NCBI RefSeq assembly: GCF_946886895.1
Contig: NZ_CAMPJO010000003.1
Location: 124,001 to 188,000 of the forward strand
Origin: an uncultured Marinobacter sp.
GTDB taxonomy: Bacteria > Pseudomonadota > Gammaproteobacteria > Pseudomonadales > Oleiphilaceae
Reading direction: 5' to 3'
DNA: 64,000 bases
Part shown: positions 1,308 through 42,646 of the stretch, piece by piece
How positions within the stretch are numbered: the stretch's first letter is position 1
Layout of the letters: each line of letters begins with the position of its first letter
Made by a program: the position numbers and the translations under genes
The notes under the pieces: model-generated
The model's input: only the letters and a program-made list of their open reading frames with translations
The model's database searches: none
What the model was told of the DNA's origin: nothing

Positions 1308-1419
1308 GAAGCCGCTGGCAGAGTCCTTCCCAAAACTGTTGAGGGCCATGGACGGCCCGAAACAAGCGCACATGGATGTGCTCGTAGCGTGTTTTGGGAA
1401 GGACTCTGCCAGCGGCTTC
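1308..1419 (+). repeat. Long-arm hairpin element, copy A
   Basis: A 112-nt element: left arm 1308-1336 and right arm 1391-1419 are perfect 29-nt reverse complements. They enclose a 54-nt core (1337-1390) with two inner hairpins, GGGCC...GGCCC and GCACATggATGTGC, and the tail CTCGTAGCGT. The core is identical base for base to that of the copy at 21129, yet the arms differ. It lies between the divergent genes trmH and miaB. No U-run follows either side, so it does not look like a simple intrinsic terminator. Confidence 0.95.
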
Positions 1420-1508
1420 ATGCACCAAAAGTCAGAATGAACGAAATAATACCACAGCCAGACTAGCAACTAGCCGAGACAAAGGTGGTTGAAGAATGAG
1501 CACCCCGT

Positions 1509-1514
1509 TATAAT
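1509..1514 (+). promoter_or_regulatory. Candidate -10 box for miaB
   Basis: A perfect TATAAT about 77 bases before the miaB ATG. The best -35 match (TTGAAG at 1489-1494) has only a 14-base spacer, so the assignment is tentative. If real, the large hairpin at 1308-1419 lies upstream of the transcript and is not in the miaB leader. Confidence 0.4.
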
Positions 1515-1590
1515 GCGCAGTTACTTTTTGCTGGCGCCACATTCAACCACCCAGTTCCCGGCGCACCATCCACCAGATTACGTGAGACCC

Positions 1591-2937
1591 ATGGCCAAGA
1601 AGCTGTACATCAAAACCCACGGCTGTCAGATGAACGAGTACGACTCTGCCCGCATGGCAGACCTGCTCAAGACCGGCGAAACCGTCGAAATGACCGACTC
1701 GCCCGATGACGCCGACATCCTGCTGCTGAACACCTGCTCCATCCGGGAAAAAGCCCAGGAGAAAGTGTTCCACCAGCTCGGCCGCTGGAAAAAGCTCAAG
1801 AGCAAAAAGCCCGACATGATCATCGGTGTGGGCGGCTGTGTTGCCAGCCAGGAAGGCCAGGCCATCATCGACCGTGCGCCCTACGTAGACATGGTCTTCG
1901 GCCCCCAGACCCTGCACCGCCTGCCAGACATGATTACCGAAGTGCGCATGAAGGGTAATGGCGTCGGCGTGGTGGATGTCAGTTTTCCGGAAATCGAAAA
2001 GTTCGACAACCTGCCCGACCCTGGTGCCGACGGCCCGTCCGCGTTTGTGTCCATTATGGAAGGCTGCAGCAAATACTGCACCTTCTGCGTGGTGCCTTAC
2101 ACCCGCGGTGAAGAAGTGAGCCGCCCGGCGGATGACGTCATCGCCGAAGTCGCCCACCTGGCCAGCCAGGGCGTTCGGGAAGTGAACCTCCTGGGCCAGA
2201 ACGTGAATGCCTACCGTGGCGAAACCCACGACGGCGACACCATGGACCTGGCCGAACTGATCGAACTGATTGCTGCTATCGATGGCATCGACCGCATCCG
2301 CTACACCACCTCGCACCCGGTGGAGTTCTCGGATGCCCTGATCGACGTTTACGAACGCGTCCCCGAACTGGTCAGCCACCTGCACCTGCCGGTCCAGAGT
2401 GGCTCCGACCGGATCCTGGTCGCCATGAAGCGCGGCCACACGGCGCTGGAGTACAAATCCAAACTCCGCCGCCTGCGCAAGATCCGGCCGGATATCAGTT
2501 TCTCGTCTGACTTCATCATTGGCTTCCCGGGTGAAACCGAGAAAGACTTCGAAGACACCATGAAGCTGATCAACGACATCGGTTTCGACATGTCCTTCAG
2601 CTTCGTTTACAGCGCCCGGCCGGGTACGCCGGCGTCGGATCTGCCGGATGAGACGCCGATGGACGTCAAGAAGCAGCGCCTGAGCATCCTGCAGGACCGG
2701 CTCAATCAGAATGTGATGGATATCAGCCGCAAGATGGTTGGCTCTACCCAGAGGATTCTGGTGACGGGTCTGTCCAAGAAAGACCCCGGGGAGTATGCGG
2801 GGCGCACGGAGAACAACCGGATTGTGAACTTCCGGCATGGGAACCCGGAGGTTGTCGGGCACTTTATCGATGTGGAGATTGTGGAGGCTTATCCCAATTC
2901 ACTTCGCGGTTTGCCCTTGAACTCGGAGTTGCATTAA
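1591..2937 (+). CDS. miaB: tRNA-2-methylthio-N6-dimethylallyladenosine synthase MiaB
   Basis: A radical-SAM methylthiotransferase that converts i6A37 to ms2i6A37 in tRNAs reading UNN codons. The 448-aa protein has the UPF0004 domain with its auxiliary-cluster cysteines at C12, C49 and C83. The radical-SAM CxxxCxxC cysteines follow at C159, C163 and C166 (GCSKYCTFC), and a C-terminal TRAM domain ends the protein (about 380-445, SKKDPGEYAGRTENNRIVNF). The start is the ATG at 1591 (MAKKLYIKTHGCQ), which matches family starts; 34 upstream in-frame codons from 1489 are not conserved-looking. Its substrate is made by MiaA, encoded elsewhere in this window (34273-35346). It is followed by a 263-base gap with copy B of the large hairpin element. 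Confidence 0.97.
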   Translation: MAKKLYIKTHGCQMNEYDSARMADLLKTGETVEMTDSPDDADILLLNTCSIREKAQEKVFHQLGRWKKLKSKKPDMIIGVGGCVASQEGQAIIDRAPYVDMVFGPQTLHRLPDMITEVRMKGNGVGVVDVSFPEIEKFDNLPDPGADGPSAFVSIMEGCSKYCTFCVVPYTRGEEVSRPADDVIAEVAHLASQGVREVNLLGQNVNAYRGETHDGDTMDLAELIELIAAIDGIDRIRYTTSHPVEFSDALIDVYERVPELVSHLHLPVQSGSDRILVAMKRGHTALEYKSKLRRLRKIRPDISFSSDFIIGFPGETEKDFEDTMKLINDIGFDMSFSFVYSARPGTPASDLPDETPMDVKKQRLSILQDRLNQNVMDISRKMVGSTQRILVTGLSKKDPGEYAGRTENNRIVNFRHGNPEVVGHFIDVEIVEAYPNSLRGLPLNSELH

Positions 2938-3025
2938 AGCTGGGATCGTATCCGTCTGAGGCCTGGCGTTGGGCTAATCTGACCTACTTGTTTTTCTTTA
3001 TTCGGGCCTGCACATAGATTGATCA

Positions 3026-40714: not shown

Positions 40715-40885
40715 GAGCCAGAGCTCCCGTTACAGAAACCGGTTTAAGAAAAATGGCCAGATACCTGTAAAGCATAGCAAAACCATCGAAAAGGTCATAA
40801 TTCAATCACATTAAATATCGGTACCTTCGGCTTACGCCCCGCGAGCCTCAACCCCCAACTTGCAACCCGGACGATCACAGCACCC

Positions 40886-41965
40886 ATGACCACTCAGCCC
40901 CAAAACCCGAACCCGACACCCGAGCTCGAAGCGCTGCCCGGGCTGATCCGTGGCTGGGCGGCGGAACTGGGGTTCTCGGATATTGGCATCACCACGCCGG
41001 ACACCGGGGAGCATGCCCGACATCTGCAGAGCTGGCTGGCACAGGGTTATCAGGGCGAAATGGCGTACATGGAGCACCATGGCGACAAGCGCTACACTCC
41101 GACTTCGCTGGTACCGGGAACGGCCCGAATCATCTCAGTACGCCTGGATTACCTGCCGGCGCCAGATAGCCCGAAAGAAGCGCTTACTGACCGGGAGAGG
41201 GCCTACGTGACACGCTATGCCCTGGGCCGCGACTATCACAAACTGATCCGGAAACGACTGGCGACCCTGGCCGGATGGATCGACAACGCGGTCAGCGGAC
41301 ACCAGCACCGGGCCTTTGTCGACAGCGCCCCGGTCCTCGAACGGGCACTGGCCCAGAAAGCCGGGCTGGGCTGGATTGGCAAGAACAACATGCTGATCCA
41401 CCCGAAAGCCGGCTCGTTCTTCTTTCTGGGGGAAATTTTTACCAGCGCGCCCCTGCCCGTGGATCCGCCCTTCGAAACCGACCATTGCGGCAGCTGCTCG
41501 GCCTGCCTCGACCTGTGCCCGACCGATGCCTTCGTGGGCCCTCACCTGCTCGACGCAAGGCGCTGCATCAGCTACCTCACGATTGAGCTGAAAGGCAGCA
41601 TTCCCGAAGAGTTGCGCCCGCTGATGGGCAACCGGGTATTCGGCTGTGACGATTGCCAACTGGTGTGCCCCTGGCAAAAATTCAGCAAACCCACCCGGGA
41701 AGAGGACTTTCAGCCGCGCCATGGCCTCGACAACAACTCACTGGCCGAACTCTTTCTATGGACCGAGGAACAGTTTCTGAAACGCACCGAAGGCTCCGCC
41801 ATCCGCCGCACCGGCTACGAAGGCTGGCTGCGGAACCTGGCGGTGGGGCTGGGTAACGCCCCGTCAACCATTCCGGTAATCGAAGCTCTCAAAAAGCGCG
41901 CCGACCACCCCTCGGAGATGGTTCGGGAGCATGTTCAGTGGGCGCTGGGGCAACACGGCCTATAA
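40886..41965 (+). CDS. queG: Epoxyqueuosine reductase QueG
   Basis: A 359-aa cobalamin/Fe-S enzyme catalysing the last step of queuosine synthesis on tRNA. Two 4Fe-4S motifs, CGSCSACLDLCPTDAF and CDDCQLVCPWQ, follow the cobalamin-binding N-terminal part; a HEAT-like C-terminus ends the protein. Divergent from nnr (171-base gap) and overlapping the orn 3' end by 6 bases. Confidence 0.95.
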   Translation: MTTQPQNPNPTPELEALPGLIRGWAAELGFSDIGITTPDTGEHARHLQSWLAQGYQGEMAYMEHHGDKRYTPTSLVPGTARIISVRLDYLPAPDSPKEALTDRERAYVTRYALGRDYHKLIRKRLATLAGWIDNAVSGHQHRAFVDSAPVLERALAQKAGLGWIGKNNMLIHPKAGSFFFLGEIFTSAPLPVDPPFETDHCGSCSACLDLCPTDAFVGPHLLDARRCISYLTIELKGSIPEELRPLMGNRVFGCDDCQLVCPWQKFSKPTREEDFQPRHGLDNNSLAELFLWTEEQFLKRTEGSAIRRTGYEGWLRNLAVGLGNAPSTIPVIEALKKRADHPSEMVREHVQWALGQHGL

Positions 41966-42502
41966 CTTGAAGAAGTGCTCCCGGTAGTGGCGCAGCTCGT
42001 TGATGGAGTCCCGGATATCGTCCAGAGCCAGGTGGCTGCCTTTCTTTTTGACCCCTGCCAGGACATCAGGCCGCCATCGGCGAGCCAGCTCTTTCACGGT
42101 TGACACATCCAGATTGCGGTAGTGAAAGAATGCTTCCAGTTCCGGCATGTACTTGACCAGAAACCGCCGATCCTGGCCGATGCTATTGCCACACAGGGGG
42201 GATTTACCGGGCTCCACGTGTTTTTTCAGGAACTCGATGGTTTGCTGTTCAGCGTCTGATTCGGAAATATCACTGTCCCGAACACGCCGTGTGAGTCCGC
42301 TTTCACCGTGTGTACGGGTACACCATTCATCCATCGCATTGAGTAGGTTATCGGACTGATGGATGGCTATAACAGGGCCCTCTGCCACAACATTGAGCTC
42401 CGAATCGGTAATAATCGTTGCCATCTCTATGATCCGCTCTTTTTCCGGATCCAGGCCTGTCATTTCCAGGTCAATCCAAACCAGGCGTTTGCCGTCTGCC
42501 AT
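41960..42502 (-). CDS. orn: Oligoribonuclease Orn
   Basis: A 180-aa DEDDh 3'-5' exonuclease that degrades 2-5 nt RNAs and in Pseudomonas is the main pGpG hydrolase, closing the c-di-GMP degradation pathway. VWIDLEMTGLD holds the first acidic pair; the other ligands are in NAMDEWCTRTHGESGL, QDRRFLVKYMPE and the C-terminal HLALDDIRDSI. The ATG at 42502 is chosen; an in-frame extension to 42805 would be encoded by repeat copy D and is rejected. Confidence 0.97.
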   Translation of the reverse strand: MADGKRLVWIDLEMTGLDPEKERIIEMATIITDSELNVVAEGPVIAIHQSDNLLNAMDEWCTRTHGESGLTRRVRDSDISESDAEQQTIEFLKKHVEPGKSPLCGNSIGQDRRFLVKYMPELEAFFHYRNLDVSTVKELARRWRPDVLAGVKKKGSHLALDDIRDSINELRHYREHFFKL

Positions 42503-42534
42503 TGTCTTTTCTCCAGCGGGTAACTCGTGATTGG

Positions 42535-42646
42535 GGCGCCGGTGGGGAGGCTGTTTCCGGGAGTGTGTGAAGCCATGGATGGCTTCACCCAAGCGCACAT
42601 GGATGTGCTCGTAGCGTCTCCCGGAAACAGCCTCCCCACCGGCGCT
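42535..42646 (+). repeat. Long-arm hairpin element, copy D
   Basis: Arms 42535-42563 and 42618-42646 pair over 29 positions (28 perfect plus a closing G-T). The 54-nt core (42564-42617) shares the second hairpin and tail exactly with copies A and C. The first hairpin is changed in a compensated way to TGAAGCCATggATGGCTTCA. It lies between the divergent genes orn and rsgA, 118 bases before rsgA. Confidence 0.95.

Follow-up and report, generated by a model that had tools for sequence, protein, structure and literature searches.

TwoAYGGAY (Rfam RF01731, clan CL00106) is a motif with gammaproteobacterial representatives in which two hairpins with AYGGAY loops are held within a long, poorly conserved outer stem. 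A table in a 2010 paper (PMC2864571) gives it as probably RNA and probably not cis-regulatory, from human gut, Gammaproteobacteria, and Clostridiales, whereas its Rfam type is 'Cis-reg'. Binding by CsrA was proposed for it from the two loops in a 2014 text that also describes the external stem as poorly conserved (PMC4333381). Here we analyzed four elements of similar build in a 64-kb stretch of DNA (contig NZ_CAMPJO010000003.1, positions 124,001 to 188,000; hereafter the window). Each is about 112 nt long and has a two-hairpin core between long complementary arms. The original prediction, made from the letters of the window, knew of no named element with this architecture, but TwoAYGGAY is a known relative.

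The covariance-model search that accompanied this prediction as a proposal was run, and it revealed a family with about a hundred copies per genome in the window's genus and with further copies in several other genera. From the sequences compared, we give about an even chance to the reading that the elements are CsrA-binding modules of untranslated regions (UTRs) whose palindromes are kept perfect by template switching during replication.

Fold, loops, and spread of the family

An inverted-repeat scan of the window (gap of 30 to 99 nt, at least 18 complementary bases, and at most 2 internal mismatches) returned four elements and nothing else. They lie where they had been predicted, in one shared orientation and with 29-bp arms. 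The bit scores below are for R1, a covariance model built from five copies including A, C, and D. Gene contexts came from our own codon-usage gene finder, which missed trmH at element A, whose true context is divergent.

1308-1419, plus strand: element A, with arms 1308-1336 and 1391-1419, core 1337-1390, and loops CATGGACG at 1347-1354 and CATGGATG at 1371-1378; between trmH (minus) and miaB (plus), divergent; 127.8 bits, A being among the five sequences that built R1
3026-3138, plus strand: element B, with arms 3026-3054 and 3110-3138, core 3055-3109 (55 nt, a second core type), and loops CAGGGATG at 3065-3072 and CATGGATG at 3089-3096; between miaB (plus) and a phoH-like gene (plus), co-directional and in sense; 87.8 bits, B being outside the building set
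21129-21240, plus strand: element C, with arms 21129-21157 and 21212-21240, the same core as A, and loops at 21168-21175 and 21192-21199; between bioB (minus) and bioF (minus), antisense to both; 125.3 bits, C being in the building set
42535-42646, plus strand: element D, with arms 42535-42563 and 42618-42646 and loops at 42574-42581 and 42598-42605; between orn (minus) and rsgA (plus), divergent; 123.8 bits, D being in the building set

The finer predicted details were also correct. The cores of A, C, and D have 54 nt and that of B has 55, the core of A is that of C, and the only arm irregularities are an internal A-C mismatch and a terminal G-T in C and a terminal G-T in D. Each core forms two hairpins with a CANGGAYG apex, and the two apices start 24 nt apart in all four copies. 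Minimum free energy z-scores of the four elements were -9 to -13 on either strand, and 0 of 200 shuffles were equally stable. A chance palindrome is ruled out by these shuffles, by the window scan, and by a reversed-pattern control that gave zero in 124 genomes.

MiaB of the window is 93% identical in Marinobacter sp. S0848L (locus L001, genome G001) and 98% identical in genome G025, from which we infer that the window belongs to the S0848L genus. We sampled this genus as 124 genomes (G001 to G124), and for the miaB locus we took the best 80 of 596 relatives, L001 and 79 that are more distant. A 25-base core piece (at most 2 mismatches) was present in 111 of the 124 genomes, with up to 39 copies in each, and its reversed pattern in none. 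A few core-pattern matches, in G004 and G014, have GAA in place of GGA and are rare losses. R1 matches numbered 113 in G025, 87 in G002, and 97 in G020; these counts, like those for other genera, include opposite-strand echoes, with 70 to 150 candidates scored per genome.

Beyond the genus, 24 of 40 named gammaproteobacterial genomes had R1 matches at E values of 0.001 or less, a count that includes Modicisalibacter (L229) and also Pseudomonas umsongensis, whose best match has no core. The matches numbered 43 in Marinimicrobium alkaliphilum, 28 in Halomonas stenophila, 25 in Pseudomonas saudimassiliensis, 15 in Shewanella sp. TC10, and 11 each in Kineobactrum and an Alteromonas sp. Among the same 40, Xenorhabdus and Erwinia had none and five of six further Pseudomonas genomes had 0 to 2. 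We read elements in Alcanivorax, Marinimicrobium, Halopseudomonas, Kineobactrum, Alteromonas, and others. The loci examined beyond the genus held 30 distinct elements with both ANGGA hairpins, 22 of them 108 to 120 nt long and eight 90 to 100 nt, the latter including all three from Halomonas loci. The P. umsongensis match (L224, 1501-1571, G144) is palindromic without a mismatch over about 30 bp, has a short loop, and could be an empty stem or unrelated.

Loops were compared in 157 genus elements, a set from which exact duplicates had been removed and in which miaB-locus orthologues were kept. Both loops were CANGGANG, with N being A, C, G, or T, in 157 of 157 hits of a pattern finder that itself requires the A and the GGA. 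The covariance model, with neither imposed, found exactly the same 22 + 25 = 47 sites in two 400-kb stretches. In other genera, GGA was kept in both hairpins, even where loops were shortened, in all nine of the core-bearing matches displayed. The base before GGA was T or C in 80 of the 157 first loops and 119 of the 157 second loops and otherwise A or G, and a strict AYGGAY loop is found in only part of the copies. GGA is constant and the adjoining base varies; therefore, the copies are under purifying selection. GGA-to-GGA spacing in the 157 elements was 23 to 25 nt. The consensus site of CsrA/RsmA is A/U-CANGGANG-U/A. The element has paired ANGGA sites in hairpin loops, as CsrA/RsmA-type sites do, and judged by its sequence the loop agrees with this consensus. 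All 12 genomes checked encode csrA, which is only a precondition for binding.

Copy A aligned to the TwoAYGGAY model over its full length, scoring 34 bits against a gathering cut-off of 43. An Rfam scan of the window at that cut-off returned nothing, and B, C, and D gave no TwoAYGGAY report up to an E value of 5. In 20 genus loci, six copies scored 32.4 to 37.5 bits and the rest were unreported up to E = 0.5. Among 20 loci from other genera, a copy in P. saudimassiliensis passed (46.1 bits) and three copies reached 35.9 to 41.4. Because their scores stay under 43 bits, the window elements are a relative of TwoAYGGAY and not a formal member. The elements also drew Rfam hits to other families (mir-642, mir-3688, and the like), which were below gathering cut-offs and were judged to be long-stem artefacts.

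Private arms and their paired changes

The combination of a conserved middle with long, copy-specific arms of nearly constant length is real and general. The predicted fixed length of 29 bp survived as a modal value and not as an exact one, since 129 of the 157 elements have arms of 26 to 30 bp within a range of 18 to 37, and we dropped the strict 29-bp arm for a mode of 26 to 30 bp. Watson-Crick pairing was 96 to 100% at arm positions 1 to 20, about 80% at 27 and 28, and 57% at 29, and it reached background by 30 to 31. No mismatch was present in 108 of the 157. The inner-arm pattern, read from the core along the left arm, turned out to be statistical (C at positions 6 and 7 in 84 to 85%, T at 9 in 87%, and G at 17 and 18 in 82 to 83%) and not absolute.

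Among 73 gap-free copies of 112 nt, both sides change at 28 of the 29 arm pairs, and the covariation score was 0.788, compared with 0.188 after shuffling and at most 0.170 after sliding. Inner arm cells held G-U in 14 of 1,460 (1.0%) and a mismatch in 11 of 1,460 (0.8%). In each of four genomes (22 to 36 sampled copies), no pair of paralogues shared arms beyond chance, which we set as what unrelated copies of two genomes share; cores were up to identical. Mid-arm identity between the sampled paralogues averaged 0.37 to 0.39, with a maximum of 0.69 to 0.75 per genome, and the comparison value, the maximum between G001 and G025 copies, was 0.81. The arms in the genus are neither variable without covariation nor alike across copies, the two outcomes that had been named as telling against the predicted architecture.

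The orthologues compared came from two sources, the miaB locus in 32 genomes (the window among them) and a syntenic 400 kb shared by G002 and G020, and flanks were aligned under free end gaps. There were 42 ortholog pairs, of which 39 (left arm at least 50% identical) entered a first total and 23 (both arms at least 80% identical) a strict set. Between the window and G025 (L106), element A differs at three arm pairs, all compensated, one of them from C-G to G-C, and element B has an orthologue in L001 with compensated arms. Across the 39 pairs, 224 of 1,014 columns had changed, comprising 165 double Watson-Crick changes, 23 single changes to G-U, 28 single mismatches, and 8 others. The strict pairs had 67 of 598 columns changed (46 double Watson-Crick, 11 G-U, 8 mismatch, and 2 other).

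Terminator-like hairpins from the same genomes served as a control. In 26 G002/G020 orthologues, 9 of 205 columns had changed and none of the nine changes was double, which differs from the 46 of 67 in the strict arms (Fisher p=1e-4). The difference held for G002/G020 elements only (16 of 32 double by hand count, p=0.007) and for arms at least 85% identical (12 of 26, p=0.015). Terminator pairs also held G-U in 32 of 252 (12.7%), against the 1.0% of inner arm cells. Transversions made up 89 of the 165 double changes and 389 of 684 flank changes (p=0.54). A search for mirrored indels in 490 comparisons flagged six. Five of these trace to the same single-base insertion in L107 (locus B), which shows up in comparison with five other genomes, the window among them, and the sixth is a 2-nt gap in weakly similar arms. 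One G002/G020 locus has a 3-nt gap mirrored in both arms, which is alignment-dependent.

Cores and arms have separate histories. The outer arms of locus A are homologous between species (GAAG..GGGG in most), and the cores that they enclose in those species are of four types; several G002/G020 orthologues also differ in core type. Therefore, cores are exchanged among loci and arms stay. One G020 element, orthologous to G002 314610, is a hybrid with a new left arm and left flank and the old right arm and right flank.

Two kinds of rearrangement were also seen. Element D is on the plus strand in the window and on the minus strand at the orthologous orn-rsgA site of L150, L199, L171, and L083, which may reflect an inversion of the core within the palindromic arms. 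In the G020 orthologue of G002:C1:2567126-2567237, a structured insert of very roughly 80 nt, itself containing several hairpins, splits the second hairpin, and L129 has a similar second-hairpin insert with several hairpins upstream of miaB. This insert is possibly another repeat that entered the loop.

Explanations weighed against the genomic arrangement

In the reading to which we give an even chance, the element would be a dispersed TwoAYGGAY-like module, with two ANGGA-loop hairpins on a palindromic stem of about 29 bp, placed between genes. Read-through transcription from a neighbouring gene would fold it as RNA, and its stem would present two CsrA/RsmA sites spaced for a CsrA dimer. The hundred or so copies in a genome could act as UTR-borne docking or titration sites for CsrA and as protectors of 3' ends. 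Stem length would matter and stem sequence mostly would not. Template switching during replication (quasipalindrome correction) may rewrite one arm from the other, and the arms would be complementary mainly because of this. Re-pairing needs matched bases on both sides, so inner mismatches would be mended, the arm boundary would be preserved, and outer ends would decay, as is seen. Cores would be homogenised among loci without their arms, by short-tract conversion or core-only copying. Template switching has a published precedent in hairpin maintenance (PMC8794818).

We looked at the flanks for signs of expression. No sigma-70-like promoter was found near elements, and on this ground a promoter of the element's own was rejected. 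Four T residues within 15 nt after the stem occurred in 0 of 84 elements, and on the other strand in 7 of 84 (about 2 expected after shuffling). Therefore, independent transcription or termination is unsupported, and any RNA role would lie within read-through transcripts. Many copies lie 6 to 70 bp from a stop codon. The right flank of the 157 elements, about 4 to 10 nt past the arm and on the 3' side only, is C-rich and then A-rich (CACCAAA-like). Riboregulation of miaB by element A as part of its 5' UTR is unlikely, because the sequence TATAAT, the -10 consensus, falls between the element and the gene; it is conserved among the matches listed. Beside element B, the phoH-like protein scored under the NCBIfam cut-off.

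Several results weigh against this reading. Template switching does not fully explain the modal arm length. The terminator control is small, less diverged (9/205 versus 67/598 columns), and not fully matched, and in the strict set the transversions (20 of 46, versus 206 of 364 in flanks; p=0.12) leave room for a transition bias. The L107 insertion sits in a G/C run, where two slippages are also possible, and lineage recombination, as in the hybrid element, complicates rates. Among single-sided changes, 23 of 51 were to G-U, when 22% was expected from the flank spectrum (p=2e-4). Therefore, some RNA-level tolerance or selection is at work. The five pairs whose arms are homologous and whose flanks are 97% identical or more contain only two changes, both of them single-sided, and therefore mismatches arise first and are resolved later; over the shortest times, a paired change is not observed as a single step. 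RNA-level selection probably acts on the arms as well. Finally, elements in co-directional contexts showed no preference for the sense strand (5 versus 4 and 5 versus 6 in the two stretches, and 17 sense versus 14 antisense in a second count, in which at least 1 of the 17 was misassigned), which is odd for a protein site carried on mRNA.

A possible, though somewhat unlikely, alternative is selection alone: the stem would be needed as RNA, whether to be handled by RNase III, to protect 3' ends, or to present the CsrA hairpins, and mismatches would be purged or compensated by ordinary mutation. The near-constant arm length and the one architecture across several families fit it, as do the G-U excess, the single-sided changes of the closest pairs, and the purifying selection seen at GGA. 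A stem kept only through RNA function with G-U intermediates should, however, show more G-U and more transitions. G-U in the inner arms is hardly above mismatch, and the double changes have no significant transition bias. The ratio of arm to flank divergence is 0.56 to 1.07 and varies with the identity threshold applied. A stem of 29 bp should tolerate a lone mismatch with little effect, yet the 29 pairs of each of about 100 copies per genome stay paired, and the ordinary hairpins of the same genomes had no double change. As far as the alignments tell, the spectrum observed is the one that arm-to-arm copying predicts. The original prediction had named two options, a fold under selection or a process by which one arm is written from the other, and these were the right ones. 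The comparisons lean to arm copying for the perfection of the arms, alongside possible selection on the fold.

Mobile DNA of the REPIN or miniature inverted-repeat transposable element (MITE) kind is a comparably doubtful account, in which a folded single strand would be a transposase substrate, copies would spread between genes, and insertion would write one arm as the inverse of the other. Several features of the copies fit it. Copy number is high and very uneven between genera, and the sense strand is not preferred. By our gene finder, the 47 elements found in the two 400-kb stretches were all intergenic (0 of 47 inside genes). In the genus sample, 36 of 36 pairs of elements less than 400 bp apart (about 20 distinct loci when orthologues are merged) were head-to-head, irrespective of flanking gene orientation and in all gene contexts. 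In other genera, the 17 close pairs among the matches listed were 14 head-to-head, 2 tail-to-tail, and 1 tandem, the tail-to-tail pairs being in Marinimicrobium (G127:C34:30892-31167 and G127:C1:359841-360096). Palindromes like the repetitive extragenic palindrome (REP), of the form TCGGATTA..TAATCCGACCTAC and from four REP clusters, adjoin elements at eight places in G002 and G020, and in 8 of 8 they are 5' of the element. The window has two such associated features, neither of them part of an element.

1248-1279, plus strand: REP-like palindrome, GTCGGATTA...TAATCCGAC-CTAC, 5' of element A
2975-2987, plus strand: decayed REP-like half site, TAATCTGACCTAC, 5' of element B

By eye, about half of the 36 head-to-head spacers contain REP-like palindromes (GTAGGTCGGATTA...TAATCCGACCTAC), sometimes two; examples are L109, L112, L113, L116, L139, L142, L170, and L174.

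Other results speak against mobility. The sampled genus paralogues have no arms in common, and therefore recent whole-element transposition is not seen there. Outside the genus, Alcanivorax sp. 24 has two dispersed copies on different contigs (L208, 1500-1613, and L230, 1498-1615) with similar arms whose differences are largely compensated. From its sequence, this pair looks like a whole-element duplication, which would favor mobility. Terminal inverted repeats common to copies, as in MITEs, were absent with this one exception. A GTAG (or CGTC) tag beside a conserved palindrome, as in REPs and REPINs, was also absent; the stems are private, and GTAG occurs in the common core types and is missing from the B-type core. 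For empty sites we compared five G002/G020 loci, four at which one of the two genomes lacks the copy and one that has an insert, and no clean empty site or target-site duplication was found at these loci, all of which are too diverged or mosaic to be informative. A blastn search of 72,556 plasmid and 50,697 phage records gave no match, which is weak evidence from a single 112-nt query of which about half is conserved.

A two-part element is quite improbable. In this scheme the core would move alone, the hairpin tip thus being what is inherited as a unit, and the locus would keep a stem continually rewritten by arm-to-arm copying; new arms would possibly come from the local flank, and CsrA would read the tip. 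Bidirectional transcription terminators are highly improbable, since despite a long hairpin on both strands and many copies close to a stop codon, the T-runs are missing as described, some copies lie between divergent genes, and termination has no need of two conserved GGA loops.

Comparison with known systems

Through this family, an Rfam motif of unassigned function is seen as a structured repeat that is very abundant in a marine genus, with a predicted tie to the global regulator CsrA at about a hundred places per genome. Its private, near-perfect arms amount to dozens of replicate stems per genome in which compensatory selection may be set against template-switch copying. How hairpins stay paired is a long-standing question, and the spectrum test, the terminator control, and the mirrored indels approach it via sequence alone. 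We found no description of this repeat in the open-licence literature, which is weak evidence. As a kind, the elements are a variant of TwoAYGGAY. Their novelty lies in the scale, in arms that are private and evolve in pairs, and in the order in which elements are paired; the portions of the TwoAYGGAY accounts consulted mention neither a repeat of a hundred copies nor head-to-head pairing, and neither private arms nor the copying of one arm from the other.

The small RNAs that sequester CsrA/RsmA (CsrB/C and RsmX/Y/Z, as well as Aln1a-c and CsrR1/2) similarly expose A(N)GGA motifs in a folded RNA. In the passages that treat them they are few and multi-site and mostly have their own promoters, CsrR1 deriving from the hfq 5' UTR. 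The element, in contrast, has two sites per copy, many copies, and no nearby sigma-70-like promoter. REPs, BIMEs, and REPINs are also high-copy intergenic palindromes with inverted-order doublets. However, REPs measure 20 to 40 bp in the descriptions consulted, whereas our elements are about 112 nt long, with a private stem and a conserved loop region. REP stems are conserved between copies. The closest parallel to the arms is in template-switch hairpins, where multi-base paired changes keep a stem perfect, as here. In PMC8794818, such changes were inferred in the histories of rRNA and microRNA, whereas a many-copy family of near-perfect stems of about 29 bp is a much denser natural data set.

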